Of a stretch of 39,507 bases of DNA, positions 6,076 to 36,912 are shown one piece after another; within the stretch, counting starts at the first letter, position 1, and each line of letters begins with the position of its first letter. The notes under the pieces are model-generated. The model saw only the letters and a list, made by a program, of their open reading frames with translations, made no database searches and was not told the DNA's origin. Both the position numbers and the translations under genes were made by a program. The DNA comes from Longimicrobium sp. (GTDB lineage: Bacteria; Gemmatimonadota; Gemmatimonadetes; Longimicrobiales; Longimicrobiaceae): contig DASVWD010000103.1 in the NCBI GenBank assembly GCA_036389795.1, positions 1-39,507 of the forward strand, in the 5' to 3' direction.

Positions 6076-6528
6076 ATGTCGATCTTCGCGCCCTCGCCTT
6101 CGCCCTGGACCGGCCGCATGCTGAGCGTCTTCCGCATCGTCGCCGGCGCGATGTTCATCATGGCCGGGACGATGAAGCTGTTCGGCTACCCGCCCAGCCC
6201 CGTGCCGGACACGCCGCCGATCCCGGTGATGTCGCAGATGTGGATCGGCGGCGTGCTCGAGTTGGTGGGCGGGCTGCTCATCACGCTCGGCCTGTTCACG
6301 CGGCCGACAGCGTTCGTGCTGGCGGGCGAGATGGCCGTGGCGTACTTCCAGTTCCACGCGCCCACGGCGTTCTGGCCGACCACGAACATGGGCATGCCCG
6401 CGGTGATGTACTGCTTCTTCTACCTGTACCTGATGTTCGCCGGCGCGGGGCCGTGGAGCCTCGACGCGCTGGTCGCCCGCTCACGCGGCGAAGCGGCGTC
6501 GCCCGAGTTGCGCATGGCCGGCGCGTGA
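6076..6528 (+). CDS. DoxX-family membrane protein
   Basis: The 150-residue protein has about four membrane segments: MLSVFRIVAGAMFIMAGTMKLF, WIGGVLELVGGLLITLGLF, AFVLAGEMAVAYFQFH and MYCFFYLYLMFAGAGPWSLD. The FRIVAGxxFxxxGxxKLFG motif and the GPWSLD ending are typical of DoxX/YphA proteins. Their function is poorly known; some are linked to thiol oxidative stress. The ATG at 6076 is preceded by GGAAAGGA. An in-frame ATG at 6016 was rejected because it would lie at the predicted transcript start. The gene lies under an ECF42-type promoter and is followed by the Lar-SnoaL fusion. Confidence 0.85.
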   Translation: MSIFAPSPSPWTGRMLSVFRIVAGAMFIMAGTMKLFGYPPSPVPDTPPIPVMSQMWIGGVLELVGGLLITLGLFTRPTAFVLAGEMAVAYFQFHAPTAFWPTTNMGMPAVMYCFFYLYLMFAGAGPWSLDALVARSRGEAASPELRMAGA

Positions 6529-6533
6529 GCGCG

Positions 6534-7169
6534 ATGAGCGTGATGGACACCGTGAGCCCCGTGCATCCGGCGCGTACGGACGTGGGCCCGCTCCGCCCCT
6601 GCCCCTTCTGCGGTGGAGCGGCGGCGCTGGAGCCGGACCCCTGGCTGGACGAGAGCGTCCGGGTCGCGTGCGGCAACGGCGCGTGCCCCGTGAAGCCGAA
6701 GACGGAGTACCTGCTCGCCTGCTACGCCGGCGAGCTGCGCGCGGCGTGGAACGGGCGCGCGGAGCAGTCGACCGTTCCTGGAAGGAGACCACAGATGCCC
6801 GAGAGCCGGATCGCGGACCTGGTCCGCCGCTACTTCGCCAGCTACCAGGCCGTCGACCGCGAGGCGATGGAAGATCTGCTGGCCGACGACTTCACCTTCA
6901 CCAGCCCGTGGGACGACCACATCTCGCGGGAAAGGTACTTCGCGCACTGCTGGCCGCACGCGGGCAGCTTCCGCTTCCGCGAGCCCATGAAGATCTTCGC
7001 CGAGGGCGGCGAGGCCTTCGTGCGCTACGAGACCGAGGGGAAGCCCGGCGGCACCTTCCGCAACACCGAGTTCTTCACATTCGACGGCGACCGGATCCGC
7101 TCGATCGAGGTCTTCTTCGGCTTCGTGCCGAACGCGGAGGCGGTGAGGGACGCGGCGGCGGACGGGTGA
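6534..7169 (+). CDS. Lar-like zinc-finger and SnoaL-like (NTF2 fold) protein, in-frame fusion or two genes
   Basis: The frame is open for 211 residues from the ATG at 6534. Residues 20-75 are a Lar/restriction-alleviation-type zinc finger: PCPFCGGAAAL, then VACGNGACPVK and LRAAWNGRA. Residues 88-211 are an NTF2/SnoaL-like domain: IADLVRRYFASYQAVDREAM, LLADDFTFTSPWDDHISRER and FFTFDGDRIRSIEVFFGFVP. An internal ATG at 6795 is preceded by GGAAGGAG, an excellent ribosome binding site, so the SnoaL domain (124 residues) may also or instead be made alone. The start lies 5 bases after doxX. What joins an anti-restriction-like finger to a SnoaL pocket is unclear. Confidence 0.65.
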   Translation: MSVMDTVSPVHPARTDVGPLRPCPFCGGAAALEPDPWLDESVRVACGNGACPVKPKTEYLLACYAGELRAAWNGRAEQSTVPGRRPQMPESRIADLVRRYFASYQAVDREAMEDLLADDFTFTSPWDDHISRERYFAHCWPHAGSFRFREPMKIFAEGGEAFVRYETEGKPGGTFRNTEFFTFDGDRIRSIEVFFGFVPNAEAVRDAAADG

Positions 7170-7196
7170 GAGGGATGCTACAAACCTGTACTACGG

Positions 7197-7390
7197 AAAC
7201 GCTGTCATCCTGAGGGCGCACACGCCGAAGTCGCGTCTGCACGAGAGCCTGTGCGCCCGAAGGATCTGCGGGCGGGATTCGCGCGTCAGCCTGGCTAACG
7301 CCCGAAACCCACCCGCAGATCCTTCGTCGCCGCCGGGGATTCGCTCATTCCGCAGGTCCGGCGCGGCGGCTCCTCAGGATGACTGCGTTT
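7197..7390. repeat. Complete structured intergenic repeat with nested inverted arms
   Basis: The outer arms at 7197-7215 (AAACGCTGTCATCCTGAGG) and 7372-7390 (CCTCAGGATGACTGCGTTT) match at 18 of 19 positions. The inner arms at 7258-7272 (CGAAGGATCTGCGGG) and 7312-7326 (CCCGCAGATCCTTCG) match perfectly. The element fills the gap between two convergent genes and could act as a bidirectional terminator or as a small non-autonomous mobile element. The same motifs recur at 264-339 and 24894-25088. Confidence 0.75.
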
Positions 7391-8729: not shown

Positions 8730-8867
8730 GGGTTCGTTCCCGGCTTCTCCGGAAGGTTGGGTTGGCGGATCGGTGCCTGGTGCTGGACGCGGGGCGCTGC
8801 AAGAAACGGGGCGGACGACGCGCACCCGGCGCCGCCGCAACCGTGCTGGGGCGAATGAATTCGCTGC

Positions 8868-9000
8868 AACAACCACACGAAGTCCGCCTGCGCGGACTCC
8901 CACGCGGAGATCTGTGCGTGTGGCCGGATGCCGTTGCAGTTGAAGCCTCGCGGGGTTTGCGAGGCTTTCTGCCGTTGTTGCCGCGGCTTCAGCCGCCCCG
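8868..9000. repeat. Structured intergenic repeat, related to 4220-4434
   Basis: The segment consists of two back-to-back hairpins, centred on GCCTGCGCGGACT and on GCGGGGTTTGCGAGG. Its tail, TGCCGTTGTTGCCGCGGCTT followed by CAGCCGCC, closely repeats 4406-4434. It is a dispersed, non-coding, foldable family in this genome. Confidence 0.5.
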
Positions 9001-11257: not shown

Positions 11258-11336
11258 GTCGTGATGGAGACGCGGTCCCCCGCCCGGCCGGGAATCGACC
11301 GAGACCCGGCCTCGACCCCAGCAGAAGGAGCGCGCC

Positions 11337-11747
11337 ATGCAGATCAACCCGTACCTCGTCTTCAACGGGCAGTGCGCCGAGGCATTCCGCTTCTACGAGC
11401 GGGTGCTCGGTGGCAGGATCGAGTTCATGCAGACCTTCGGCGAATCGCCGATGGGGAGCGAGACGCCGCCCGAGTGGAAGGACTGGGTCATGCACGTCAG
11501 CCTCGACGTGGACGGCCAGAAGCTGTTCGGCTCCGACAGCCCGCCCGAGCACTTCGAGAAGCCGGCGGGCACGTCCGTTTCGATCAACGTCGAGCGGGCG
11601 TCGGAGGGGGAGCGCATCTTCAACGCCCTGGCCGAAGGCGGGCAGGTGAGGATGCCGTTCGAGAAGACCTTCTGGGCCGCCGGCTTCGGCATGTGCGTCG
11701 ACCGGTTCGGCACCCCGTGGATGGTCAACTGCGAGAAGGGCGACTGA
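11337..11747 (+). CDS. VOC-family protein 1 (PhnB-like)
   Basis: The 136-residue protein is a glyoxalase/dioxygenase-superfamily (VOC) protein of the PhnB type: PYLVFNGQCAEAFRFYERVLGG at the start, then IEFMQTFGESP and a C-terminal GFGMCVDRFGTPWMVNCEKGD. PhnB-like proteins often lack a known reaction, and metal ligands cannot be assigned here by eye. GAAGGAG lies 8 bases before the ATG. It is the first of three close paralogues and the first gene after the 11231 promoter. Confidence 0.88.
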   Translation: MQINPYLVFNGQCAEAFRFYERVLGGRIEFMQTFGESPMGSETPPEWKDWVMHVSLDVDGQKLFGSDSPPEHFEKPAGTSVSINVERASEGERIFNALAEGGQVRMPFEKTFWAAGFGMCVDRFGTPWMVNCEKGD

Positions 11748-11821
11748 GCCTTTCGTCCGGGTCCGCGGCCGCGGGCGGCGCGGCGCGGGCCCGGCCCCAA
11801 CCCCGGCGGAAGGAGCGCGGC

Positions 11822-12232
11822 ATGCGGATCGACACGTACCTCTTCTTCGACGGCCGGTGCGCCGAGGCGTTCCGCTTCTACGAGCGCGTGCTGGGCGGCA
11901 GGATCGACTTCATGCAGACGGCCGGCGAGTCGCCGGTGCGGGACCAGACCCCGCCCGAGCAGCACGACTCCATCCTCCACGTCCACCTGAGCGTGGGCGA
12001 CTTCGTGCTGATGGGCTCCGACGCGCCGCCCCCGCACTTCGAGAAGCCGCAGGGGTTCTCGGTGTCGATCAGCGTCGAGGAGCCGGGCGAGGCGGAGCGG
12101 ATCTTCCGCGAGCTGTCGGAAGGCGGGCAGGTGCGGATGCCGATGGAGAAGACCTTCTGGGCCGCCCGCTTCGGCATGTGCGTCGACCGGTTCGGCACGC
12201 CGTGGATGGTCGGCTGCGACAAGGGCGACTGA
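11822..12232 (+). CDS. VOC-family protein 2 (PhnB-like)
   Basis: The 136-residue paralogue of VOC 1 shares AEAFRFYERVLGGRIDFMQT, EKTFWAARFGMC and FGTPWMVGCDKGD. GGAAGGAG before the ATG at 11822 fixes the start. The middle (HFEKPQGFSVSISVEEPGEA) differs most between the copies, suggesting changed ligand preference. The 74-base gap after VOC 1 contains only GC-rich sequence with no TGTCGA box, so transcription probably continues from 11231. Confidence 0.88.
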   Translation: MRIDTYLFFDGRCAEAFRFYERVLGGRIDFMQTAGESPVRDQTPPEQHDSILHVHLSVGDFVLMGSDAPPPHFEKPQGFSVSISVEEPGEAERIFRELSEGGQVRMPMEKTFWAARFGMCVDRFGTPWMVGCDKGD

Positions 12233-12241
12233 GCCGACCCC

Positions 12242-24849: not shown

Positions 24850-25109
24850 ATTGACTGTGCATTTTTCGCAGCTCCCGCAAGACCAGGAAGATGTCATCCT
24901 GAGGGAGCGTCCTCACGAGACTTTCCTCCGCACCAGAGGTTGGACGCGACCGAAGGATCTACTCACCATGTCTGGTGGCCGGGGATCGCGCGCAGACGCC
25001 GGCCTCGCGTGGGGGTGAGTAGATCCTTCGGTCGCCGCCGGACATCGGTGCGGGAGACAAGCTCGGCGCAGCGGCTCCCTCAGGATGAGATCTCCTTTGC
25101 ACAGTCAAT
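24850..25109. repeat. 260-bp MITE-like element with terminal and nested inverted repeats
   Basis: The terminal arms ATTGACTGTGCA (24850-24861) and TGCACAGTCAAT (25098-25109) are perfect. Inside them, TCATCCTGAGGGAGC (24894-24908) pairs with GCTCCCTCAGGATGA (25074-25088). Further in, 24947-24967 (starting CGACCGAAGGATC) pairs with 25014-25034 (ending GATCCTTCGGTCG) over 21 bases without mismatch. Its inner motifs are shared with 7197-7390 and 264-339, but the outer 12-bp ends are not, which is why it looks like a family of nested elements or a small mobile unit without its own transposase. Confidence 0.7.
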
Positions 25110-25129
25110 CTCGGGATTGGGTATTACGT

Positions 25130-25187
25130 GGAGTCAGCGGAGTCGGCAGAGAGCTTCTCGCCGTTCTCTGTCGACTCCGTTGACTCC
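25130..25187. repeat. 22-bp-arm intergenic hairpin (GAGTC repeats)
   Basis: The left arm 25130-25151 (starts GGAGTCAGCGGAGTCGG) pairs with 25166-25187 (ends CGACTCCGTTGACTCC) at 20 of 22 positions around a 14-base loop. It may be another dispersed repeat or a terminator. Confidence 0.55.
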
Positions 25188-25262
25188 GTGTGAGGCCGCC
25201 GTTCTCCAGCCCGGCCCCCGCCCGCCGCCCGAAGTGTGCGAAAGACATTCTGCCGCATATGG

Positions 25263-25291
25263 TTGACGAAGGACGCCGCGGGTGCGATACT
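25263..25291 (+). promoter_or_regulatory. Probable sigma-70 promoter of mocA-xdhC
   Basis: TTGACG (25263-25268), a 17-base spacer and GATACT (25286-25291), matching TATAAT at 4 of 6 positions. It lies 110 bases before the mocA ATG; CGTTCGTTCGAGCG nearby is a small palindrome. Confidence 0.5.
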
Positions 25292-25401
25292 CCAGTCGGG
25301 CGTTCGTTCGAGCGCCCGTCACCGGGTTCCCGCCGGCGGTCGCGTCCGGCGGGAATCGTTTTGCTCCCGCTCCCCCTCCACGTCCACGCCGCCGACCCTC
25401 C

Positions 25402-25995
25402 ATGATCGCCGGGATCGTGCTCGCCGCGGGGCGCTCGCGCCGGATGGGCGAGCCCAAGGCGTTCCTGCGGCTGGAGGGCCGGAGCTTCCTGGAGCGCACC
25501 CTGGCGGCCCTGCACCACGGCGGCTGCGGCGAGCTGGTGGTGGTCACCGGCCCGCGCGAAGACGACGTGGCCCGCCGCATCGCCGAGGCCGCGCTCGCGC
25601 TGGGCGCCCGCGTGGTGGTGAACCCCGCGCCCGACTCGGAGCAGGCCGACTCGCTGCGCCTGGGCCTGCGCGCGCTGCCGGACGACGCGGAGGCCGCCGT
25701 GGTGGCCCCGGTGGACGTGCCCGAGATCGAGGCCGCGCTGGTGCTGGCGCTGGTGGAGGCGTTCCGGCGCACCGCCGCGCCCGTCGCCCTCCCCTCGCAC
25801 GGGGGGCGGCACGGGCACCCGGTGCTCTTCGCGCGCGGCGTGTGGCCCGAGCTGCTGGAGGGGCCGCTCCCCCAGGGCGCGCGCACGGTGATCCACGCGC
25901 ACGCGCACGACCTGGCCGAGGTGCCCGTCCCCCGGCTGGCGGCCGACGTGGACACGCCGGAAGACTTCCGCCGCTTGGCGGAGGGCGCGCGGTGA
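25402..25995 (+). CDS. MocA-like molybdenum cofactor nucleotidyltransferase
   Basis: The 197-residue protein has the MobA/MocA fold: MIAGIVLAAGRSRRMGEPKA, then FLRLEGRSFLERTL, VVVTGPREDDV, VVAPVDVPEIEA and a C-terminal AADVDTPEDFRRL. LAAGxSxRMGxPK is the nucleotide-binding P-loop-like motif. MocA transfers CMP (or GMP in MobA) to Moco; adjacency to XdhC favours cytidylylation for the xanthine dehydrogenase group. It overlaps xdhC by GTGA. No molybdenum hydroxylase structural gene is in the window. Confidence 0.85.
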   Translation: MIAGIVLAAGRSRRMGEPKAFLRLEGRSFLERTLAALHHGGCGELVVVTGPREDDVARRIAEAALALGARVVVNPAPDSEQADSLRLGLRALPDDAEAAVVAPVDVPEIEAALVLALVEAFRRTAAPVALPSHGGRHGHPVLFARGVWPELLEGPLPQGARTVIHAHAHDLAEVPVPRLAADVDTPEDFRRLAEGAR

Positions 25996-26885
25996 CCGAG
26001 CCCGGCCCGGCCCCGCTCCCGGCGGCCGAGGCGGTGCACCACGCCCGCGCGGCGCTGGAGGGCGGCCCGCCGGTGGCCATCGTCACCGTGATCGACGCGC
26101 GCGGGCACGGCGCCCCTCCCCCGGGCGCGCACCTGGCCGCGTGGGCGGACCGGCACGCGGGGACGCTGGGGAGCGCCGCGCTCGACGAGCGGGCGCTCGC
26201 CGCCGCGCGCGAGGCGCTGGCCTCGGGGAGGGCGGGCTCGCGCGACCTCGAGGCCGGCGGCGCCGCCTGCACCGTCTACGTGGAGCCGCACCGGGCGCCG
26301 CCCTCGCTGGTGATCGTGGGCGCGGGGCACATCGCCCGGCCGCTCTGCCGGGTGGGGGCGCTGCTGGGCTTCCGGGTCACGGTGCTCGACGACCGCCCCG
26401 AGTTCGCCACCCGCGAGCGCTTCCCCGAGGCCGCCGAGGTGCGCCGGGCCGACTTCTCCGACCCGCTGCGGGGGATCGACACCGACGGCGCCTGGCTGGT
26501 GCTGGTGACGCGCGGGCACAAGTACGACTTCGAGGTGCTGCGCGACGTGCTGCGCCGGCCCGCTTCCCCGGCGTACGTGGGGATGGTGGGGAGCCGCCGC
26601 CGCACCCGCGCGGCGCTGGAGCAGCTCGCCCGCGAGGGCGTCGAGGCGGAGCGGCTCCGCGCCGTCTACGCCCCCGTGGGGCTGGACGTCCGCGCCGAGA
26701 CGCCGGAGGAGATCGCCGTCTCCATCGCCGCCGAGCTGGTGCGGGTGCGCCGCGGCGGCACCGGCCAGTCGCTGCGCGACCGCGAGCGCGTGGCCGAGCG
26801 CTGGGTCACCCGCGAGCGGCCCGCGTCCGCCGGGGGGGAAGCGCCTCCGCGCGGTGAGCGACACCCCGGGGGCGGCGATCCGTAG
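25992..26885 (+). CDS. XdhC-family protein with a degenerate N-terminal CoxI part
   Basis: The 297-residue protein starts at a GTG overlapping the mocA stop. Its C-terminal Rossmann domain has VIVGAGHIARPLCRVGALLG, VTVLDDRPEFATRERFPEA, YVGMVGSRRR and PVGLDVRAETPEEIAVSIAAEL, typical of XdhC. The N-terminal XdhC/CoxI-like half lacks GSTPR, having GHGAPPPGAH in its place, and lacks the GTVGGGC-type loop (GTLGSAALD). XdhC holds and sulfurates Moco for insertion into xanthine dehydrogenase-type enzymes. The normal CoxI domain is encoded separately at 32777, after five unrelated genes. Confidence 0.85.
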   Translation: MTEPGPAPLPAAEAVHHARAALEGGPPVAIVTVIDARGHGAPPPGAHLAAWADRHAGTLGSAALDERALAAAREALASGRAGSRDLEAGGAACTVYVEPHRAPPSLVIVGAGHIARPLCRVGALLGFRVTVLDDRPEFATRERFPEAAEVRRADFSDPLRGIDTDGAWLVLVTRGHKYDFEVLRDVLRRPASPAYVGMVGSRRRTRAALEQLAREGVEAERLRAVYAPVGLDVRAETPEEIAVSIAAELVRVRRGGTGQSLRDRERVAERWVTRERPASAGGEAPPRGERHPGGGDP

Positions 26886-26895
26886 TGGGGGGCCG

Positions 26896-26916
26896 GCCCG
26901 GCCATCCCGGCCGGGC
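26896..26916. terminator. Hairpin between xdhC and the paralogue array
   Basis: GCCCGGCC (26896-26903) pairs with GGCCGGGC (26909-26916) around ATCCC. It lies in the 51-base gap before the first paralogue and may reduce read-through from mocA-xdhC. Confidence 0.45.
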
Positions 26917-26936
26917 GGCCAACCGGGTGGGACCCG

Positions 26937-27977
26937 ATGTACCGCACCTGCATCTACTGCTCCGCCGACCTGGGGAGCAACGACGCGCTGGAGCCCTTCC
27001 CCGTGGGGCGGAGCATCGCCTTCGACGGGTGGAAGGGGCGGCTCTGGGCCGTCTGCCCGAAGTGCGCGCGCTGGAACCTGGCGCCCCTCGAGGAGCGCTG
27101 GGAGGTGGTGGAGGCCGCCGAGCGGCTCTTCGCCGACGCGCGGCTGCGCGTGCAGTCCGAGAACGTGGGGCTCGCCAGGCTGCGCGACGGCACCCGGCTG
27201 ATCCGCGTGGGGCGGGCCCTTCCCGGCGAGCTGGCGGCCTGGCGCTACGGCGACCAGCTGGTGAAACGCCGCCGGCACTACCTGCTGGTGGCCGGCGCGG
27301 CGGCCGCGGCGGGGATCGCCGTGGTGGGCGGGGCCGTGGCGCTCACCGCCAGCGCGGGGATGGTGTCGGCGTTCAACGGCGTCTTCCAGCTGTGGAACCA
27401 GCGCCGGCAGCGGAAGGTGATCTACGGCATCCCGCGCGAGGAGTCGCCCACCGGGCAGCCGCTGGTGCTGCGCCGCTGGCAGGCGGGCGCGGCGGTGCTC
27501 GGCGAGGGCCCGGGCGGCGGGATCTCGCTGGTGGTGCCCGACGCCTCGCGCAGGAACCCGAAGACCGACGGGTGGGGGCGCCCGAAGTTCACCGGCGACC
27601 CCGTGGTGCTCCCCGACCGCCACGCGCGCGCCTTCCTGGGGCGCGCCATGGTGCACCTGAACGCCGCCGGCGCCTCGCGGCGGCGGCTGGAGGGGGCGGT
27701 GGGGCTCCTCTCCGAAGCCGGCAGCGCCGAGGACTTCGTGCGCCGCGCCGCCGCCGAGGGGCGCACCCTGGGGAAGCGCCACGACCTCCCCGGCCGGCAG
27801 CTGCGCCCCGAGGGGTCGCTGGCGCTGGAGATGGCCCTGCACGAGGAGCAGGAGCGGCGCGCGCTGGAGGGCGAGCTGTCGCTGCTCGAGGCCGCCTGGC
27901 GCGAGGCCGAGGAGATCGCGGCCATCGCCGACCGGCTGGCGGGCGAGGTGCCGGCGCGGCCGGGGCGGGAGGGCTGA
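26937..27977 (+). CDS. Zinc-ribbon membrane paralogue A (unrecognised family)
   Basis: I do not recognise this 346-residue family. It begins MYRTCIYCSADLGSNDALEP and has C5-x-x-C8 and C40-x-x-C43, with RLWAVCPKCARWNLAP: a likely zinc ribbon. A basic run (KRRRH) precedes a hydrophobic segment at about 115-153 that could be a membrane hairpin. Then come EESPTGQPLVLRR (a strand-like SPTG motif) and RAFLGRAMVHLNAAGAS. Residues 295-337 are a highly charged helix, LALEMALHEEQERRALEGEL and the sequence leading to IADRLAGE. It is the first of five tandem copies; the next starts 4 bases after the stop. Confidence 0.8.
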   Translation: MYRTCIYCSADLGSNDALEPFPVGRSIAFDGWKGRLWAVCPKCARWNLAPLEERWEVVEAAERLFADARLRVQSENVGLARLRDGTRLIRVGRALPGELAAWRYGDQLVKRRRHYLLVAGAAAAAGIAVVGGAVALTASAGMVSAFNGVFQLWNQRRQRKVIYGIPREESPTGQPLVLRRWQAGAAVLGEGPGGGISLVVPDASRRNPKTDGWGRPKFTGDPVVLPDRHARAFLGRAMVHLNAAGASRRRLEGAVGLLSEAGSAEDFVRRAAAEGRTLGKRHDLPGRQLRPEGSLALEMALHEEQERRALEGELSLLEAAWREAEEIAAIADRLAGEVPARPGREG

Positions 27978-27981
27978 GCCG

Positions 27982-29121
27982 ATGTACCGGCACTGCATCT
28001 TCTGCTCGGCCGGCCTGGGCGCCAACGAGGCGGTCGAGGAGTTCCCGGTGGGCCGCACGCTCGCCTTCGACGCCGGGAAGGGGCGGCTGTGGGCCGTCTG
28101 CACCCGCTGCGGCCGCTGGAACCTGGCGCCGATCGAGGAGCGCTGGGAGGCGGTGGAGCGGCTGGAGCGCCTCTTCGCCGACGCGCGCCTGAAGGCGCAG
28201 TCCGAGAACGTGGGGCTGGCCAGGCTCGGCGACGGGACGCGGGCCGTGCGCATCGGCCGGGCGCCGGGGCGCGAGGTGGCGGCGTGGCGCTACGGCCGGC
28301 AGCTCGCGCGGCGCCACCGCGCCTGGCTGGTGGGAACGGCGGGCGCGGTGGCGCTCGGGGCCGGCCTGGCGGCGCTCAGCCTGGCGTTCCTGGCGGTCGG
28401 CGGCACGGCGGCGTTCCTGCTGGGGCTGGACGCGGCCGAGAGCGTGCGGCGGCGCCGGGTGGTGCACCACTTCGGCCCCGCCGACTCGCCCACGGGCGCG
28501 GTGTTCACCCTGCGCCGCGGCGACCTGGGCGGGGCACGTCTCGGCACCCAGGGCGGCGAGCTGGCGCTGCAGCTGCCGCAGGCGCCGCTGGCCGGGGTGG
28601 GCCCGGACCGCCCGCTGGTGCTCACCGGCCGCACCGCGCGCACCGTGCTGGCGCGGTCGATGGCGGCGGTGAACGGCCGCGGGGCGAAGCAGGACGGGAT
28701 CGACGCCGCCCTCGGCGTGCTCGCGCCCGGCGGCGCGGAAGAGTACGTGCGGCGCTCGGCCGAGGAGGGGCGCGCGCTGGGCGTGCGGATGGGGCCCCGG
28801 GGGGCGTACTGGTTCGCCGGCGTGCGCGGCGTGGCGCGGCAGGCGGGCTACCACCTCTGGCGCGACCTCGCCGGCCGCACCCGGCGCGGCGTGGACCCCG
28901 ACGCCCCGCCCGACCCCTTCGGCCCGCCGCCGGAGGGGAGCCTGCAGGGGCCCGAGGCGCTGGCGCTGGAGATGGCGCTGCACGAGGAGCAGGAGCGCCG
29001 GGCGCTGGAGGGCGAGCTGTCGCTGCTGGAGGCCGCCTGGCGCGAGGCCGAGGAGATCGCCGCCATCGCCGACCGGCTGGCGGGCGAGGCGCCGGCGCGA
29101 CCGGGGCTCACGGGCGGTTGA
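27982..29121 (+). CDS. Zinc-ribbon membrane paralogue B (unrecognised family)
   Basis: The 379-residue protein has the same plan as A: MYRHCIFCSAGLGANEAVEE, CxxC at 5/8 and 40/43, FADARLKAQSENVGLARLGDGT, a basic run, and a long hydrophobic stretch at about 114-150 (LVGTAGAVALGAGLAALSLA onward). ADSPTGAVFTLRRGDL follows at 168, then RTVLARSMAAVNGRGAK. The C-terminal module spans residues 327-369 and is almost the same as in A at DNA level. A region rich in Pro/Gly/Trp (ARQAGYHLWRDLAGRTRRG) precedes it, absent from A. GGGAGGG lies before the ATG. Confidence 0.8.
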   Translation: MYRHCIFCSAGLGANEAVEEFPVGRTLAFDAGKGRLWAVCTRCGRWNLAPIEERWEAVERLERLFADARLKAQSENVGLARLGDGTRAVRIGRAPGREVAAWRYGRQLARRHRAWLVGTAGAVALGAGLAALSLAFLAVGGTAAFLLGLDAAESVRRRRVVHHFGPADSPTGAVFTLRRGDLGGARLGTQGGELALQLPQAPLAGVGPDRPLVLTGRTARTVLARSMAAVNGRGAKQDGIDAALGVLAPGGAEEYVRRSAEEGRALGVRMGPRGAYWFAGVRGVARQAGYHLWRDLAGRTRRGVDPDAPPDPFGPPPEGSLQGPEALALEMALHEEQERRALEGELSLLEAAWREAEEIAAIADRLAGEAPARPGLTGG

Positions 29122-29128
29122 GGCGCCG

Positions 29129-30178
29129 GTGTACCGGCACTGCATCTTCTGCTCGGCCGGCCTGGGCGCCAACGAGGTGGTCGAGGAGTTCCCGGTGGGC
29201 CGCACGCTCGCCTTCGACGGGGCGAGGGGGCGGCTCTGGGCGGTGTGCCCCCGCTGCGCCCGCTGGAACCTGGCCCCCATCGAGGAGCGCTGGGAAGCGG
29301 TGGAGGCGGCGGAGCGGCTCTTCTCCCGCGCCGCCCTGCGCGCGCAGGGCGGGAGCCTGGGGCTGGCGAAGCTGCCGGACGGGACGAAGCTGGTGCGCGT
29401 GGGATGGGCGCCCCCCGCCGAGGTGGCGGCGCACCGCTACGGCGCGGCGTTCGACCGCCGCCGGCGACGCTATCTCACCTTCGTGGGCGGGGTGACCGCG
29501 GTGCAGATCCTCCCCCTGGGCGTCGTGGCGACCGTGGCGGGGATCTCCGCCCTCGCCGCCCTGCTGGGCCACGGCTGGAGGGGAAGCGTGCTGCACCGCG
29601 TGCCGTCCGGGCGGTCTCCGACGGGGCGCGCGCTCCGGGTGCAGACGTGGGACCTGGCCGGCGTGCGCGCGGCGAGCCAGGGCGACGGCACCTTCCGCCT
29701 GGAGCTGCCGCACGCGACGGCGCGCGGCGTGAGTCCCGCGGCACCGCTGGTCCTCGAGGGCGAGGACGCCGGGCGCCTGCTGCAGCGGGTGATGGTGCTG
29801 GTCAACGCCCGCGGCGCGAAGCCGGACGAGGTGGCGCAGGCGCTGGAGCGGGTGGACCGCGCGGGCGGGACGTCGGAGCACGTCCGTGGCTTCCGCGGGG
29901 GGCTTTCGGTGCGGCTCTTCCCGCCGCGCGAGGAGTTCGGGATCACCCCTCCTTGGCACCCGCTGCCGTACCGGGACCGCGCCGCGGGACCGCTGGTCAC
30001 GCCGCCCGAGGCGCTGGCGCTGGAGATCGCGCTGCACGAGGAGCAGGAGCGCCGGGCGCTCGAGGGCGAGCTGACGCTGCTGGAGGCGGCCTGGCGCGAG
30101 GCCGAGGAGGTCGCCGGGATCGCCGACCGGCTGGCGGCGCAGGTGCGCGCCGTCCACCTGCCCCGCCCCGGGGGGTGA
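29129..30178 (+). CDS. Zinc-ribbon membrane paralogue C (unrecognised family)
   Basis: The 349-residue protein starts with GTG at 29129, 7 bases after the stop of B; the alignment of MYRHCIFCSAGLGANEVVEE to the other copies fixes this start. All four Cys are kept (5, 8, 40, 43). It is the most divergent in the first helical part (SRAALRAQGGSLGLAKLPDG). The hydrophobic region is at about 115-148 (FVGGVTAVQILPLGVVATVA). SPTGRALRVQTWDL and RLLQRVMVLVNARGAKPDEV follow. Residues from 296 form the common C-terminal helix. It is the last of the closely spaced A-B-C group. Confidence 0.8.
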   Translation: MYRHCIFCSAGLGANEVVEEFPVGRTLAFDGARGRLWAVCPRCARWNLAPIEERWEAVEAAERLFSRAALRAQGGSLGLAKLPDGTKLVRVGWAPPAEVAAHRYGAAFDRRRRRYLTFVGGVTAVQILPLGVVATVAGISALAALLGHGWRGSVLHRVPSGRSPTGRALRVQTWDLAGVRAASQGDGTFRLELPHATARGVSPAAPLVLEGEDAGRLLQRVMVLVNARGAKPDEVAQALERVDRAGGTSEHVRGFRGGLSVRLFPPREEFGITPPWHPLPYRDRAAGPLVTPPEALALEIALHEEQERRALEGELTLLEAAWREAEEVAGIADRLAAQVRAVHLPRPGG

Positions 30179-30288
30179 GGCCGGATCCGGGTCGCTCGTC
30201 CGCCCGCCCGGACCGGCAGGATCGGCGGCAGCCGCGCGTTCCACGGGAGCCAACGGAACCTGCGGCCACGCCCTCCCGCGAAGGAGCG

Positions 30289-31488
30289 ATGTACCGGCAC
30301 TGCATCTACTGCTCGGCGTACCTGGGGACGAACGAGGCGCTGGAGGGCTTCCCGGTGGGGAGGAGCGTGGCGTTCGACGCCGCCCGCGGGCGGCTGTGGG
30401 CGGTGTGCGGACGGTGCGCGCGCTGGAACCTGGCGCCGCTCGAGGAGCGCTGGGAGGCGGTGGAGGCGGCCGAGCGCACCTTCCGTGACACGCGCCTCCG
30501 GGTGCAGCGCGAGAACATCGGCATCGCCCGGCTGCGGGACGGCACGCGGCTGGTGAGGATCGGCGAGGCGCTCCCCGGCGAGGTGGCGGCGTGGCGCTAC
30601 GGGGGCGAGCTGTCGCGGCGGCGCCGGCGCCACCTGGCGCGCGGGCACGTCTCGGGCGCGAGCGCCATGGTGGCGGCCGGGGTGGTGTTCGCCGTGGTGG
30701 GCCCCGTGGGCGGGCTGGTGACGGCCGCCGCGGCGTACGGCCTGGCGGAGGCCGCGTACCGCGGGGTGGAGCGCGGGGTGGAGCGCCTCCTGGAGGTGCG
30801 GGCCGAGCGCACGCCGGTGCACCGCCTGGACCCGCACGAGTCGCCCAGCGGCGAGCCGATGGTGATGCGCCGGGCGCACCTGCGCGGGGCGTACCTGGCG
30901 GGCGACGACGACACCGGCGAGCTGGTGCTGCGCGTCCCCGCCCTGGCGCCGGAGCCGTACGACTGGCTGGCACCTCTGGAGCCCGAGCCGGTGCCGGCCC
31001 CCTTCACCGTGCGCGGGTGGCGCGCCCGCTCGCTCCTGGCGCGGGCGATGGTGGGGGTGAACGCGGGCGGGGCCACGCCCAGGGTGGTGGAGCACGCGCT
31101 GGCCGAGCTGCACCGCTCGGGGTCGCCGGAGCGCTACCTGGCGCGCCTGGCCGAGCAGCACGCCACGCTGGAGCTGCCGCGGGGCGCCGAGTCGCCCCGC
31201 GGCGGCTGGGACCTGTACTGGACGCGCCGGGCCGACATGGAGGGCGTCCCCCAAAGCGAGCGCGACGAGTGGCGGGCGCGGGTGGGCGCGGGGATCGCGG
31301 GCGAGCGCCACGGCGGGCTGGTGCGCGGGCTGGCGCTCGAGGTGGCGCTGCACGAAGAGGAGGAGCGCCGCGCGCTGGAGGGCGAGCTGACCCTGCTGGA
31401 GGCCGCCTGGCGCGAGGCCGAGGAGCTGGCCGCCATCGCCGACCGGCTGGCGGGTGAGGCGCGGGCGCGGCCCGGCGCGCCGGGCTGA
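30289..31488 (+). CDS. Zinc-ribbon membrane paralogue D (unrecognised family)
   Basis: The 399-residue protein is the longest copy. MYRHCIYCSAYLGTNEALEG begins the zinc ribbon (Cys 5, 8, 40, 43). A hydrophobic segment lies at about 122-155 (SAMVAAGVVFAVVGPVGGLV), with a Pro-Gly turn in its middle as for a hairpin. ESPSGEPMVMRRAHLRGAYL and RSLLARAMVGVNAGGATPRV follow, then an extra EPYDWLAPLEPEPVPAP loop and YWTRRADMEGVPQSERDEW. The C-terminal helix starts at 348. AAGGAGCG precedes the ATG. A 110-base gap upstream may hold a second promoter, though none was recognised. Confidence 0.8.
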   Translation: MYRHCIYCSAYLGTNEALEGFPVGRSVAFDAARGRLWAVCGRCARWNLAPLEERWEAVEAAERTFRDTRLRVQRENIGIARLRDGTRLVRIGEALPGEVAAWRYGGELSRRRRRHLARGHVSGASAMVAAGVVFAVVGPVGGLVTAAAAYGLAEAAYRGVERGVERLLEVRAERTPVHRLDPHESPSGEPMVMRRAHLRGAYLAGDDDTGELVLRVPALAPEPYDWLAPLEPEPVPAPFTVRGWRARSLLARAMVGVNAGGATPRVVEHALAELHRSGSPERYLARLAEQHATLELPRGAESPRGGWDLYWTRRADMEGVPQSERDEWRARVGAGIAGERHGGLVRGLALEVALHEEEERRALEGELTLLEAAWREAEELAAIADRLAGEARARPGAPG

Positions 31489-31525
31489 AGCGCCGCGGGC
31501 GCGAGTCTTCCATCGTGCGGGCTGC

Positions 31526-32650
31526 ATGTACCGGCACTGCATCTACTGCTCGGCGGACCTGGGCGCGAACGAGGCGCTGGAGGGCTTCCCCGTGGGCCGC
31601 ACGCTCGCCTTCGACGCGGCGAAGGGGCGGCTCTGGGCGGTGTGCCGGAAGTGCGCGCGCTGGAACCTGGCCCCCATCGAGGAGCGCTGGGAGGCGGTCG
31701 AGGGCGCGGAGCGGCTGTTCCGCGACACGCGCACGCGCGTGCACGCCGAGAACATCGGGGTCGCGAAGCTGAGGGACGGCACGCGGCTGGTGCGCATCGG
31801 CGAGGCGCTCCCCGGCGAGCTGGCGGTGTGGCGCTACGGCCGCGAGCTGGAGCGGCGCCGGTTCCGCGCGCAGGCCGCGGCGGGGATGCAGAAGACGGCG
31901 GTGGGGCTGGTGGTGGTGGGCTCGGCCTTCCTGGGCCCGTTCTCGTTCCTCTCCTCGCTCCTGCTCGGCGCGGCCCACGACGCGGCCCGGCGGCGGGCGG
32001 GCGACGAGCTGCTGCACGTGGTGCACGTGGTGCCGCCGCGCGAGTCGCCCTCCGGGCAGCCCCTGGCGCTGCGCAGCGGCGACCTGGACGGGGCGTACCT
32101 GTCGGGCGGGCCCGGGCCGGGAGAGGTCGCCCTGCACGTGCCGGTGGTGGTCGGCGCCGGGCTGGACGCCGTGGAGCTGCGGGGCGAAGACGCCTGGAAG
32201 GCGCTCTCCCGCGCCCTGGTGCGCATCAACGGGCGCGGCGCCTCGCGCGCGGAGCTCGACGGCGTGTTCCAGATGTTCGCCCGGCACGGGTCGCTGCAGG
32301 CGTTCCTGGCGCGGCAGGCCGAGTCCGGGGCGACGTTCGGGCGCGGCGACTCCATGCTCTACTGGCAGTGGCGGGCCCGGCGGGAGGGGATCCCCCCCGG
32401 GAAGTTCCTGGCCTGGCAGAAGGTGACCAGCTACGGCACCGAGGGCGCGCGCGGCCACGCCGTCCAGCTCGGCATCGAGATCGTGCTGCAGGAGGAGCGC
32501 GAGCGCCGCGCGCTGGAGGGCGAGCTGAAGCTCCTGGAGAGCGCCTGGCGCGAGGCCGAGGAGCTGGCCTCCATCGCCGACCGCCTGGCGGGGGAGACGC
32601 CGGAGGGGGCCGCCGGCCGCCGGCTGGTCCCGCGGCGCGACCCCGCGTGA
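31526..32650 (+). CDS. Zinc-ribbon membrane paralogue E (unrecognised family)
   Basis: The 374-residue protein begins MYRHCIYCSADLGANEALEG, with all four Cys kept. FRDTRTRVHAENIGVAKLRD follows, then a hydrophobic region at about 118-150 (TAVGLVVVGSAFLGPFSFLS) and ESPSGQPLALRSGDLDGAYL. KALSRALVRINGRGASRAEL aligns with the common AMV-x-N motif. DSMLYWQWRARREGIPPGKF resembles the YWTRRADMEGVP stretch in D, so D and E are closest. The C-terminal helix (from 315) reads QLGIEIVLQEERERRALEGE, the most changed of the five. The start was chosen by alignment; no good ribosome binding site precedes it. Confidence 0.8.
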   Translation: MYRHCIYCSADLGANEALEGFPVGRTLAFDAAKGRLWAVCRKCARWNLAPIEERWEAVEGAERLFRDTRTRVHAENIGVAKLRDGTRLVRIGEALPGELAVWRYGRELERRRFRAQAAAGMQKTAVGLVVVGSAFLGPFSFLSSLLLGAAHDAARRRAGDELLHVVHVVPPRESPSGQPLALRSGDLDGAYLSGGPGPGEVALHVPVVVGAGLDAVELRGEDAWKALSRALVRINGRGASRAELDGVFQMFARHGSLQAFLARQAESGATFGRGDSMLYWQWRARREGIPPGKFLAWQKVTSYGTEGARGHAVQLGIEIVLQEERERRALEGELKLLESAWREAEELASIADRLAGETPEGAAGRRLVPRRDPA

Positions 32651-32672
32651 GGGAGCGCGCCCGAAAACCGCA

Positions 32673-32726
32673 GTGCGTTAGTGCGTTAGTGCGTTAGTGC
32701 GTCAGTGCGTTGGTGCGTTCGTGCGG
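32673..32726. repeat. 8-bp tandem repeat (GTGCGTTA)
   Basis: GTGCGTTA is repeated perfectly at 32673, 32681 and 32689, then as GTGCGTCA, GTGCGTTG, GTGCGTTC and a partial GTGCGG. It lies between paralogue E and the XdhC/CoxI gene. GTGAGTGCGT sequence of the same type is also found near 34899 and 35479. Confidence 0.75.
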
Positions 32727-32776
32727 AATACGGGGGCGGGGTGCAGAGTGCGGTGCGAGCGTCGACGGATGGAGAG

Positions 32777-33094
32777 ATGAACGAAGACCTGGCCGTGTTC
32801 GCGGCCGCGGAAGAAGCGGCGCGCGAGGGAAGGCCCGTGGTGCTGGCAACCATCGTGCGGTGCAGGGGGTCCACGCCGCGCGGGGTGGGGAGCAAGATGC
32901 TGGTGGACCCCGAGCGCGGGCTCACCGGCACCGTGGGCGGCGGCTGCGGCGAGGCGGAGGTGATCGAGGCCGCCCGCGAGGTGGCCGCCACCGGCGCCCC
33001 CCGGCTGCTGCGCATCGACCTCACCGAGGACCTGTTCAGCTGGAGCCCCGCCGTCTGCGGCGGGACCTTCGACGTGTTCCTGGAGCGGGTCTGA
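32777..33094 (+). CDS. Stand-alone XdhC/CoxI-domain protein
   Basis: The 105-residue protein is a complete XdhC/CoxI domain: VVLATIVRCRGSTPRGVGSK, then LTGTVGGGCGEAEVIEAARE and SPAVCGGTFDVFLERV. These GSTPR, GTVGGGC and CGG motifs are those missing from the N-terminus of XdhC at 25992, so the two may act together in Moco handling for a molybdenum hydroxylase. GGAGAG just before the ATG supports the start. The dehydrogenase follows 52 bases later. Confidence 0.85.
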   Translation: MNEDLAVFAAAEEAAREGRPVVLATIVRCRGSTPRGVGSKMLVDPERGLTGTVGGGCGEAEVIEAAREVAATGAPRLLRIDLTEDLFSWSPAVCGGTFDVFLERV

Positions 33095-33146
33095 CCCGCC
33101 TCATCGACCTCGCCGACCGACGACCCGCCCGGAATCCCAGGCCCGC

Positions 33147-34415
33147 ATGGAGACAGGCACCGCACCCGCCCGCGCCGAGGCCGCCTGGCGCCGGTACGCC
33201 GACTACCTCCGCCGGCCGCCGCTCCTAGTGGTGGAGTGGAACGACGCCGAGACCGGGGCGCGGGGGTGGCTGGTGATCAACTCGCTCCGGGGCGGGGCGG
33301 CCGGCGGGGGCACGCGCATGCGCGCCGGGCTCACCCGGCGCGAGGTGACGTACCTGGCCAAGACGATGGAGCTGAAGTTCTCCTTCAGCGGCCCTCCCAT
33401 CGGCGGCGCCAAGAGCGGAATCGACTTCGACCCGGCCGACCCGCGGAAGGACGGGGTGCTCAGGCGCTGGTTCCGCGCGATCTCTCCCTATCTGGGGCGG
33501 TGCTACGGCACCGGCGGCGACCTGAACGTCGACGAGGTGCGCGACGTGATCCCCTGCTGCGCCGAGATCGGCCTCTCCCACCCGCAGGAGGGCGTGGTCC
33601 GCGGGCACCTGCGCCCCGGCGGCGAGCGCCTGGCGCAGGTCCACGCCGCGCTGGACGGCGGGGTGCGCGCCGTGGTGGACCACCCGGAGTACGGCGTGCC
33701 GGGTGCGGGCCTCTCCGTGGCCGACCTGGTCACCGGCTACGGCCTGGCCCGCGCGGTGATCGCCTTCCACGAGGCGCGGGGGCGGAGCGTGGCCGGCCGG
33801 CGCGTGCTGCTGGAGGGCTTCGGCGCGGTGGGCGGGCCGTGCGCGCTGTACCTGGCCCGCGCGGGCGCTGCGATCGTCGGCATCGCCGACCGCGAGAAGA
33901 CGTTCGTGGTCCCCGCAGGCCTCGGCGCGGCGGAGACGGAGGCGCTGCTCGTGGCGCGCGGCGACGACAAGCTCCTCCCCGACGACCCGCGCTGCGACCG
34001 CGACGGCGACCGGAGGGCGTTCCACGCCGTGGCCGCCGACGTGTTCGTGGCGGCGGCGGCCTCGGAGACGCTCGACGAGGAGGCGCTCGGGCGGCTGCGG
34101 CGCCAGGGGGTGGAGATCATCGCCTGCGGCGCCAACCAGCCGTTCCGCGAGGCCGACCTGGGGCACACCCGCGTGCAGCGCGCGGCCGACCGGCGCTTCA
34201 GCGTGATCCCCGACGTGGTGGCCAACTGCGGGATGGCGCGCGCCTTCAGCTTCCTGATGGCCGAGGCGGAAAGCGCCGACCCCGCGCCCGTCTTCCGGGC
34301 GGTGGACCGCACCGTGACCGGCGCGCTGCTGGAGATCCTCTCCCGGGGCGGCGGCCGCCCCACGGGGCTCCTGGGCGCCGCCTTCGCCCACGCGCTGGAC
34401 CGGGTGGCGCCGTGA
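33147..34415 (+). CDS. Glu/Leu/Phe/Val dehydrogenase-family enzyme
   Basis: The 422-residue protein has the Glu/Leu/Phe/Val dehydrogenase plan: GGAAGGGTRMRAGLTRREV, K77 in MELKFSFSGPPIGGAK (K89 the other catalytic-type Lys), GTGGDLNVDEVRDV, and a nucleotide-binding GFGAVGG at 224-230. C-terminal IIACGANQPF and VIPDVVANCGMARAF are typical. It would oxidatively deaminate an amino acid or run in reverse with NAD(P)H in the cytosol. Substrate specificity (glutamate or branched-chain) cannot be decided. It follows the XdhC/CoxI gene by 52 bases with no clear promoter. Confidence 0.87.
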   Translation: METGTAPARAEAAWRRYADYLRRPPLLVVEWNDAETGARGWLVINSLRGGAAGGGTRMRAGLTRREVTYLAKTMELKFSFSGPPIGGAKSGIDFDPADPRKDGVLRRWFRAISPYLGRCYGTGGDLNVDEVRDVIPCCAEIGLSHPQEGVVRGHLRPGGERLAQVHAALDGGVRAVVDHPEYGVPGAGLSVADLVTGYGLARAVIAFHEARGRSVAGRRVLLEGFGAVGGPCALYLARAGAAIVGIADREKTFVVPAGLGAAETEALLVARGDDKLLPDDPRCDRDGDRRAFHAVAADVFVAAAASETLDEEALGRLRRQGVEIIACGANQPFREADLGHTRVQRAADRRFSVIPDVVANCGMARAFSFLMAEAESADPAPVFRAVDRTVTGALLEILSRGGGRPTGLLGAAFAHALDRVAP

Positions 34416-34436
34416 CCGGCGCGCCAATCACAGACC

Positions 34437-34463
34437 TTGACCCCGGGCGTTCCCGACTACATT
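34437..34463 (+). promoter_or_regulatory. Possible sigma-70 promoter of dksA-like gene
   Basis: TTGACC (34437-34442) with TACATT (34458-34463) at a short 15-base spacing. The spacing is suboptimal, so this is a tentative call. It lies 44 bases before the gene. Confidence 0.35.
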
Positions 34464-34506
34464 AGTTTCTACGCCCCACCCTCACCCGTACCCCGAAGGA
34501 CAACGC

Positions 34507-34869
34507 ATGATGGCAGTTCAGAGCCCGCTTCCGGCGGAAAAGCTGGAAGCGATCCGGGCGGAGCTCCTGCGCACGCTCGGCAAGCTGGAGCGGAGCCTCA
34601 AGATCAGCGGCGAGAACGGGAAGGTCCGCGACCTGGAGCAGGACACCGTGGGCCGCCTCTCCCGGATCGACGCGATCCAGAACCAGGGGCTCACGCAAAA
34701 CCTGGAGGAGCGCGAGCGCGCCCAGCTGCGCAAGGTGGCCGACGCCCTGCGCCGCCTGGAGGACGGCACCTACGGCGCCTGCAGCTCGTGCGGCGGCAGC
34801 ATCCCCTTCGAGCGCCTGCTCGTCTTCCCCGAGACCCTCGCCTGCACCGCCTGCGCGCGCGGAGCGTAA
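34507..34869 (+). CDS. DksA/TraR-type C4 zinc-finger protein
   Basis: The 120-residue protein has a coiled-coil (LEAIRAELLRTLGKLERSLK), QDTVGRLSRIDAIQNQGLTQ, and a C4 zinc finger with C92, C95, C113 and C116 (YGACSSCGGSIPFERLLVFP, CTACARG). This is the DksA/TraR plan; such proteins enter the RNA polymerase secondary channel and adjust promoter output, often with ppGpp. The acidic tip residues of DksA (DxxDxA) are not clear, so its effect on transcription is unknown. GAAGGA precedes the first ATG; the second codon is also ATG. Confidence 0.85.
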   Translation: MMAVQSPLPAEKLEAIRAELLRTLGKLERSLKISGENGKVRDLEQDTVGRLSRIDAIQNQGLTQNLEERERAQLRKVADALRRLEDGTYGACSSCGGSIPFERLLVFPETLACTACARGA

Positions 34870-34979
34870 GTCCGAACGAGTGCGGAAACACGGAAGCGCG
34901 TGAGTGCGTCGGGCTCGCCCGCGCACGTCATGCTGGTTTGGTTCCGCACCCGCGGGGACATCTTCTCCGGAGGTTTCCC

Positions 34980-35432
34980 ATGCGCAACGCTTCGGCCGCG
35001 GCCCTGGCCGCGCTCGCCCTGCTGGCCGCCTGCGCCTCCGCGGGCGGCGGCGCTCCCGGCAGCCGCGGCGACGACCCCTTCCGCCCCTGCCCCGGCCAGG
35101 AGGCGGCGATGGCGGCCATCGCCGGCCGCGCGCCGAACCCCGACGGAAGGCGCATCCCGCCCGCGAGCTTCACGGTCACGACCACCACCACCGTGACGCC
35201 GGGCCAGGCTCAGCCCGCCCCGCAGCCTCCCTCCCTCGAGCTCGAGGTGGAGATGCAGGTCGACGCGGCGGGGCGGGTCACCGCCACGCGGCTGCGCCGG
35301 AGCAGCGGCCACTTCGACGTGGACCGGGCGATCACCGAGTCCGCGCGGCAGGCCCGGTTCGACCCCGCGACCGAGCACGCCTTCCCGATCCCCGGCTGCG
35401 CGATCTGGACGCTCCGGAGCCCGAGCCGGTAG
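34980..35432 (+). CDS. TonB-C-like lipoprotein 1
   Basis: The 150-residue protein opens MRNASAAALAALALLAACAS, with lipobox L-A-A-C (Cys18). DPFRPCPGQEAAMAAIAGRA follows, then a Thr-rich linker (TTTTTVTPGQ) and a TonB-C-like domain: VEMQVDAAGRVTATRLRRSS and DRAITESARQARFDPATEHAF. The C-terminal domain of TonB normally contacts outer-membrane receptors; here it lacks an energy-transducing membrane anchor, and the role is unknown. A paralogue of the same length follows. GGAGG lies 7 bases before the ATG. Confidence 0.8.
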   Translation: MRNASAAALAALALLAACASAGGGAPGSRGDDPFRPCPGQEAAMAAIAGRAPNPDGRRIPPASFTVTTTTTVTPGQAQPAPQPPSLELEVEMQVDAAGRVTATRLRRSSGHFDVDRAITESARQARFDPATEHAFPIPGCAIWTLRSPSR

Positions 35433-35556
35433 GCCGCGCGGGGCGGACGTCCGACCAGGTGCCGAAACACGGAAGCGCGTGAGTGCGCCGGCTCGCCCGG
35501 GGGCACCATGCTTGTCCATGCCCGCGCAGTCAGAGCCAATTTCCGGAGGGCTTCCC

Positions 35557-36009
35557 ATGCGCAACGCTTCGACCGGCATCCTGCTCGCGCTCGCCCTGCT
35601 GACCGGCTGTGCCTCGTCGCGCGGGGCGCGCGCCGCCGACTCCCGCCGCGGCGGCGGTGACCTGTTCCGCCCCTGCCCGGGCCAGGACGCGGCCATGGCC
35701 CGCATCGCCGGCCGGCCACGGGTGCCGCGCAAGGATCTCGGCCCCATCGAGATCCGGATCGCCAGGGAACTGCGTCCCGGCGAACGGCCACCGCGTTCCG
35801 CGCCGCGGCTCGACCTCCGGGCCGAGCTGGAGCTGCGGGTGAACGCGGAGGGGCGGGTGACGGAGGTGCACGTGCTGCGCAGCACCGGCAACTTCAACGT
35901 CGACGGCTCGATCACGAGCAGCGCCCGTAACCTGCGCTTCGACCCTGAGACCGAGTGGGCCTTCCCGGTCCCCGGCTGCGCCCTCTTCTCCTTCCACTTG
36001 CAGAGTTGA
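35557..36009 (+). CDS. TonB-C-like lipoprotein 2 (tandem paralogue)
   Basis: The 150-residue protein opens MRNASTGILLALALLTGCAS, with lipobox L-T-G-C (Cys18). DLFRPCPGQDAAMARIAGRP and the TonB-C-like core LELRVNAEGRVTEVHVLRST, then SSARNLRFDPETEWAFPVPG, align with lipoprotein 1. The 124-base upstream segment is also copied (GAAACACGGAAGCGCGTGAG occurs before both), so a whole promoter-gene unit was duplicated. The linker differs (RKDLGPIEIRIARELRPG, not Thr-rich). Role unknown. Confidence 0.8.
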   Translation: MRNASTGILLALALLTGCASSRGARAADSRRGGGDLFRPCPGQDAAMARIAGRPRVPRKDLGPIEIRIARELRPGERPPRSAPRLDLRAELELRVNAEGRVTEVHVLRSTGNFNVDGSITSSARNLRFDPETEWAFPVPGCALFSFHLQS

Positions 36010-36144
36010 CCGGGCTCCGCGTGCGAGGTCGCGCGCCTGTGGCGGGGTCGTAACCGGATCTTGCGACCCGTCCGCGGGGAGCGGTGTATCACGCCCGCCC
36101 CCGCCCGCCGGCGGCGGGGGCGCACGGGCTCCGTCACCTCCGAC

Positions 36145-36912
36145 ATGGGCAAGCGACTCCTCTCCCTCTGGGTCTGGGCCAGCGGCGCCGTCATCGGCCT
36201 CCTGTGGGTGCCGTGGCTGGCGCTGGTGTGGCTCTGCACCGCTCCGTTCGACCCCGGCCGCTACACGGTGGGCCGCTGGTTCCGCCGCGCCGCCGTGGTG
36301 GCCACCAAGCTCAACCCGCTCTGGCAGTTCCGCGTCACCGGCGTGCGCATCGCCGACCCGCGGCGCCCGTACGTGGCGGTGGCCAACCACGAGTCGTTCG
36401 CCGACATCTTCCTCCTCTCGCACCTGCCCTGGGAGATGAAGTGGCTCTCCAAGGAGGCGATCTTCCGGATCCCCTTCATGGGGTGGATGATGCGCATGGC
36501 GGGCGACGTGGCCGTGGCGCGCCAGGACGTGCGCAGCCGGCTGCAGGCGATGGAGGAGTGCCGCGACCGCCTGGCCAAGGGCGTGTCGGTGATGATCATG
36601 CCCGAGGGGACGCGCTCGGCCACGGGCGAGCTGCAGCACTTCCACGACGGCGCCTTCCGCCTGGCGGTGGAGACGGGGTGCCCGGTGCTCCCGATCGTGG
36701 TGGCCGGCACCCGCGACGCCATCGCCAAGGGGTCGTGGCTGGTGAACCGCGCCCGCGCCGTGGCCCGCGTCCTCCCGCCGGTAGAGACGCGCGGCCTCAC
36801 GCTGGACGACGTCCCGGCGCTGCGCGAGAAGGTGCGCGCCATGATCGCCGAGGCCCGCGCCGCCCTCCAGCGCGAGCTGGAGGGCGATGGCCCCCGGACG
36901 GCGGCGGCGTAG
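36145..36912 (+). CDS. PlsC-family lysophospholipid acyltransferase
   Basis: The 255-residue protein has an N-terminal membrane segment (LWVWASGAVIGLLWVPWLAL, with CTAPFDPGRY after) and acyltransferase motifs H82-x4-D87 in ANHESFADIF and PEGTRS at 153-158, plus FRIPFMGWMMRMAGDVAVAR. The family transfers acyl groups to 1-acylglycerol-3-phosphate at the inner membrane. An earlier in-frame start exists at 36061; the ATG at 36145 was chosen because the protein then starts just before the membrane segment. No strong ribosome binding site was seen. Confidence 0.87.
   Translation: MGKRLLSLWVWASGAVIGLLWVPWLALVWLCTAPFDPGRYTVGRWFRRAAVVATKLNPLWQFRVTGVRIADPRRPYVAVANHESFADIFLLSHLPWEMKWLSKEAIFRIPFMGWMMRMAGDVAVARQDVRSRLQAMEECRDRLAKGVSVMIMPEGTRSATGELQHFHDGAFRLAVETGCPVLPIVVAGTRDAIAKGSWLVNRARAVARVLPPVETRGLTLDDVPALREKVRAMIAEARAALQRELEGDGPRTAAA

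Follow-up and report, generated by a model that had tools for sequence, protein, structure and literature searches.

A probable XdhC/CoxI chaperone encoded as two polypeptides on either side of a paralogue array in Longimicrobium

In the genome of a Longimicrobium species, an XdhC protein and a 105-residue CoxI protein are encoded on the two sides of an array of five paralogous genes. This arrangement raises the question of whether the two proteins are parts of one molybdenum-cofactor (Moco) chaperone and whether the array between them takes part in its function. The window, the whole 39,507-nucleotide stretch of DNA analyzed, constitutes contig C103 in a Longimicrobium sp. genome of 7.5 Mb and 285 contigs. 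The locus runs entirely on the forward strand in the order mobA-like gene, xdhC, five array paralogues, coxI, and Glu/Leu-type dehydrogenase gene, with the following features.

25263..25291, + strand: sigma-70-like promoter match upstream of mobA (9 of 12 positions; a consensus match only)
25402..25995, + strand: MobA/MocA-like nucleotidyltransferase (PF12804, 135 bits)
25992..26885, + strand: XdhC, with a cysteine-less second CoxI-like repeat (about residues 19 to 98) and the XdhC Rossmann domain (PF13478, PF02625)
26937..27977, + strand: array paralogue 1 (paralogue comparison; predicted fold, pLDDT 89.5)
27982..29121, + strand: array paralogue 2 (paralogue comparison)
29129..30178, + strand: array paralogue 3 (GTG start; paralogue comparison)
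30289..31488, + strand: array paralogue 4 (paralogue comparison)
31526..32650, + strand: array paralogue 5 (paralogue comparison)
32672..32725, + strand: octamer AGTGCGTT repeated 6.8 times in tandem, in the interval from array gene 5 to coxI
32777..33094, + strand: CoxI, a stand-alone first XdhC repeat with the conserved GGGC cysteine (105 amino acids; PF02625, 90.1 bits)
33147..34415, + strand: Glu/Leu-type amino-acid dehydrogenase (PF00208 and PF02812)

The sigma-70-like site was the sole match in a promoter scan of positions 25000 to 34600, for which shuffled sequence gave a mean of 0.1. For the mobA-like product, the best NCBIfam rows were the DVU_1551 family NTP transferase and MocA, both under their cutoffs. 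The dehydrogenase gene adjoins coxI in G002, G012, G013, G014, and G018 as well, and is a conserved neighbor that probably lies outside the chaperone. Array gene 5 and coxI do not overlap in the window; they are separated by 126 nt containing the octamer repeat, a 21-mer of which has 50 exact matches scattered over the genome (15 forward, 35 reverse), and the backwards control has none. Elsewhere in the window, a 485-bp tandem duplication at 11305 to 12235 (1.9 copies, 81% matches) seems to contain the coding sequence of a small protein in repeated form.

The XdhC at 25992 had been described in the initial annotation as degenerate because its N-terminal half lacks the GSTPR and GTVGGGC motifs. 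Both motifs are indeed absent from this half, which reads ...GAPPPGAHLAAWADRHAGTLGSAALDE..., but it passes PF02625 with 46.2 bits against a cutoff of 24.3, the cysteine being absent, and the Rossmann domain passes PF13478 with 152.6 bits against 29.7. By sequence, residues 19 to 263 align in one continuous stretch with residues 118 to 368 of PDB entry 2we7 (108 bits), which comprise the second repeat and the Rossmann domain. Structural alignment of an AlphaFold2 model, built on a three-sequence input (pLDDT 73.7), placed the protein on residues 120 to 360 of 2we8 (Z 21.9, RMSD 6.1, 227 residues) and residues 111 to 359 of 2we7 (Z 21.7). On Bacillus halodurans 3on5, the alignment of the model's N-terminal half begins at chain residue 9, within the region of the first domain (Z 20.9, RMSD 9.6), which counts against assigning it to the second repeat; the phmmer alignment of XdhC with 3on5 is confined to the Rossmann domain. 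It is very unlikely that XdhC is a decaying protein of domain 1 and Rossmann domain whose lost half was later replaced by CoxI. The Cys motif is missing here and present in CoxI, and the N-terminal half diverges faster than the Rossmann part, as decay would have it; yet sequence and fold both place this half on repeat 2 of 2we7 and 2we8, and the cysteine-less form is common to the examined relatives in f1, the window's own family, and in f2 and f3, other families of its order. The candidate of a degenerate XdhC was rejected on the 2we7 and 2we8 alignments, and the N-terminal half is a normal second repeat of a long three-domain XdhC.

The motifs missing from XdhC lie on the far side of the array, as the initial annotation had also observed: CoxI, with its PF02625 match of 90.1 bits, carries both GSTPR and GTVGGGC. 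It aligns with residues 19 to 105 of 2we7 (50.6 bits) and weakly with residues 121 to 181 (8.8 bits), and the profiles of the first and second repeats are homologous (hhalign 95.3%). The family model NF045664 spans both proteins, CoxI matching its positions 6 to 100 and XdhC residues 94 to 254 its positions 185 to 345. Singly, they stay below the cutoffs of NF045664 (350 bits; XdhC 200.5, CoxI 85.9) and TIGR02964 (161.6 bits; XdhC 100.4, CoxI 52.7), as is expected of a split protein. In the single-chain XdhC of Deinococcus radiophilus, the CoxI match occupies residues 18 to 100 and the XdhC match residues 104 to 342. Since CoxI is the first repeat and the N-terminal half of XdhC the second, the pair corresponds to a long XdhC divided over two genes whose order is reversed. 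Two results count against a split chaperone: the second-repeat profile is weak on the Deinococcus chain (best 3.6 bits, located in its first repeat), and on the second repeat of a single-chain Streptomyces protein it scores 16.3 bits, below the 19.8 bits of the first-repeat profile. The proposal that the two proteins are parts of one chaperone is nevertheless supported by the alignments with 2we7, NF045664, and the Deinococcus chain. Between them they contain the PF13478 domain and the cysteine-bearing PF02625 domain of an XdhC/CoxI chaperone, the latter through CoxI; the set is a chaperone of known kind whose form, split and with swapped gene order, is unusual and is shared across the order. 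The GGGC cysteine of CoxI appears to be the one conserved across XdhC members (Cys82 of Rhodobacter capsulatus). This natural split isolates the cysteine-bearing repeat and makes the part of each repeat in Moco binding testable by mixing and matching of subunits.

Gene order was compared in 99 genomes, the one containing the window plus 98 related ones belonging to the same genus, family, and order, with counts taken from 149 XdhC_C and 150 CoxI places among the matches listed. CoxI lies no more than 600 bp after XdhC_C in 66 of the 99 genomes among the matches listed (54 in f3, 9 in f2, and 3 in f1). This adjacency, and the fact that each protein carries just part of the domains of its single-chain relatives, makes it very unlikely that XdhC and CoxI are separate factors for different enzymes, even though they are separate genes and are parted here by the array.

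In 11 f1 genomes, including the window's, the xdhC-coxI gap measures 1.2 to 6.1 kb and is occupied by one to five array genes. For locus comparison, 20 stretches were fetched from 19 relatives. In ten of these relatives, xdhC is separated from coxI by one to three array genes, the one in G015 being broken up; in G014, array genes sit at each of the two contig ends, and in G011 a contig end falls inside an array gene. The array is absent from the locus in the other seven (G012, G017, G019, G021, G033, G058, and G060), in five of which xdhC and coxI overlap. Of the 11 relatives in which coxI and the last array gene share a contig, 7 show a 4-nt overlap between the two. Both overlap counts are approximate because start codons were chosen by position. 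The array had earlier been suggested to be an insertion into a molybdenum maturation operon, and the relatives with mobA-xdhC-coxI and no array agree with this, indicating that the array was inserted into an older pair; its insertion between xdhC and coxI within f1 is well supported. The xdhC-coxI gap is also wide, 4 to 5 kb, in two f3 genomes, G072 and G026 (L180, L181); no array homologue was found in these gaps, and one stretch of the G026 gap resembles DNA gyrase A, as judged by eye.

The gap in the window is filled by the five paralogues already noted, all of them intact, with paralogues 2 to 5 being 52 to 57% identical to paralogue 1. A CxxC-x(20-40)-CxxC motif occurs within the first 60 residues in 125 of 127 collected homologues, and 120 of the 127 contain one or more stretches of strong hydrophobicity; from this motif and the hydrophobicity, the array proteins are predicted to combine a zinc ribbon with a membrane hairpin. 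The predicted structure (pLDDT 89.5) consists of a β-rich N-terminal domain, a helical pair (residues 100 to 158), a middle domain, and a long C-terminal helix. No Pfam family scored above its cutoff for any of the five proteins (best 15.2 bits against 30.1), nor did any NCBIfam family for the two of the five searched; a PDB search with a 30-row array profile gave nothing significant (best E value 0.16). Foldseek gave no clear match of the model to a solved structure (best E value 0.59), and the best among the matches listed by VIA had a Z score of 5.2 and an RMSD of 4.6 over 58 residues. This family, which is confidently modeled, had no detected match to any family or fold, and is widespread in Gemmatimonadota, merits separate study.

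Of the 99 near-set genomes, 80 have array-family members, as do 146 of 200 genomes sampled from Gemmatimonadota. The window's own genome has five copies at the locus and two on contig C30, where the two divergent paralogues adjoin a PAS/GAF histidine kinase (L179, positions 423 to 2405; G000:C30). Both xdhC and coxI are present at 2 of 79 named array-family loci, just 34 of which have both full flanks. Clustering of open reading frames around the 79 loci yielded a single neighbor cluster present in more than 12 loci; this cluster, found at 77, overlaps with the array genes and was taken as an artifact of overlapping reading frames. Pfam matches of ten neighbor-cluster representatives (DUF819, cupin, VWA, GNAT, and six blanks) revealed no theme. 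Four array loci (L118, L135, L141, and L145) sit in records titled Chloroflexota or Gammaproteobacteria; these are possibly misnamed or contaminated metagenome-assembled genomes, as nearly all other titles are Gemmatimonadota.

It is conceivable but unlikely that the array proteins were recruited to Moco maturation; they might, for instance, be zinc-ribbon partners anchored in the membrane that tether the split chaperone or relay metal or sulfur. The array genes occupy the same operon-like place on the same strand in all 12 carrying f1 relatives fetched, and the 4-nt overlap with coxI would suit such a role, but the array is absent from the locus in three f1 genomes and in the fetched f2 and f3 genomes. 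In a quick tree, copy 1 clusters with its counterparts at the first position in the arrays of G002 and G008 (support 99) and also with those of G001 and G009 (support 90), which counts in favor of recruitment; the deep branches of this tree are too uncertain to prove that the array arose by one insertion and later duplicated on the spot. The genes are intact and simple dN/dS is below 1 for all pairs tested, a crude measure that is unreliable at this GC content, whereas they diverge faster than coxI or xdhC. A membrane partner, CoxE, has been proposed for the XdhC-family protein CoxF (excerpt of PMC4240915), yet the array family mostly resides elsewhere, with 2 of 79 loci near xdhC and the two further copies of this genome beside a histidine kinase. 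It is more doubtful still that the array proteins are new-fold, membrane-anchored zinc-ribbon scaffolds of the XdhC/CoxI pathway, their variable number holding the two halves together; if so, the family would mature its molybdenum hydroxylases at the membrane. A role in molybdenum-enzyme maturation is thus possible, yet not indicated by the wider distribution of the family, and we favor a passenger or lineage-specific function for the array, whose proteins would have a role of their own.

No hydroxylase gene was recognized among the ten scanned genes of positions 25402 to 36909, in line with the initial annotation, but its view of the target enzyme as unknown has to be amended, as three large subunits are encoded elsewhere in the genome. 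Three of the four MoCoBD_2 matches of this genome lie in intact large subunits on contigs C111, C17, and C104, which by score are nearest to aerobic CO dehydrogenase (900 bits), 4-hydroxybenzoyl-CoA reductase (872 bits), and PucD (478 bits), all under the family cutoffs. The fourth, on C139 (L178, about 8730 to 8900), is a CoxL-type fragment downstream of a CoxG-family gene (6485 to 7318), apparently a decayed CO-dehydrogenase locus. A check for a second complete XdhC found none in the 98%-complete assembly, whose single XdhC_C match and two XdhC_CoxI matches fall at the window locus, and the pair stands as the only XdhC system detected; the split pair would therefore serve the three hydroxylases encoded on other contigs.

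Altogether, we consider it likely that the locus encodes a split XdhC/CoxI chaperone in an older mobA-xdhC-coxI operon, into which the array was inserted later in one family. The older operon would provide for Moco maturation, with XdhC (second repeat and Rossmann domain) and CoxI (first repeat and cysteine) supplying all three domains of a long XdhC. The two proteins most likely form one hetero-oligomer that would bind sulfurated Moco and hand it to enzymes of the xanthine-oxidase family, whose genes lie elsewhere in the genome. Genes of the lineage-expanded zinc-ribbon/membrane-hairpin family entered between xdhC and coxI in one family and probably multiplied there, giving one to five copies that were presumably retained in the transcription unit.

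The split and the array were not described in the titles and abstract openings of the literature searched, the coverage of which is incomplete. A plasmid search gave no match for CoxI and 298 records for XdhC, none covering at least 80% of the query; the two plasmid XdhC records examined both encode single-chain proteins. One single-chain protein, XdhC/CoxI WP_229253485.1 from a Deinococcus radiophilus plasmid, adjoins a nucleotidyltransferase as XdhC does here, but it lies beside hydroxylase structural genes, whereas the hydroxylases of the window's genome are on other contigs. The long three-domain XdhC, represented by NF045664 and by the Mycobacterium smegmatis homologue of Rv0376c (PDB entries 2we7 and 2we8), shares with the window's pair a Cys-bearing CoxI repeat, a second repeat, and a Rossmann domain; the window differs in that these parts are divided between two polypeptides and the gene for the first repeat comes last. 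According to an excerpt of PMC2997495, almost all XdhC members share one cysteine, Cys82 in R. capsulatus, which is expected to act in Moco handling, as would the conserved cysteine here; R. capsulatus XdhC is a single-chain protein, dimeric according to that review, whereas the cysteine in the window is on a separate 105-residue protein. In Oligotropha carboxidovorans, the proposed membrane-bound partner of CoxF is, in the excerpt of PMC4240915, a von Willebrand-type protein, unlike the array proteins with their predicted zinc ribbon and membrane hairpin.
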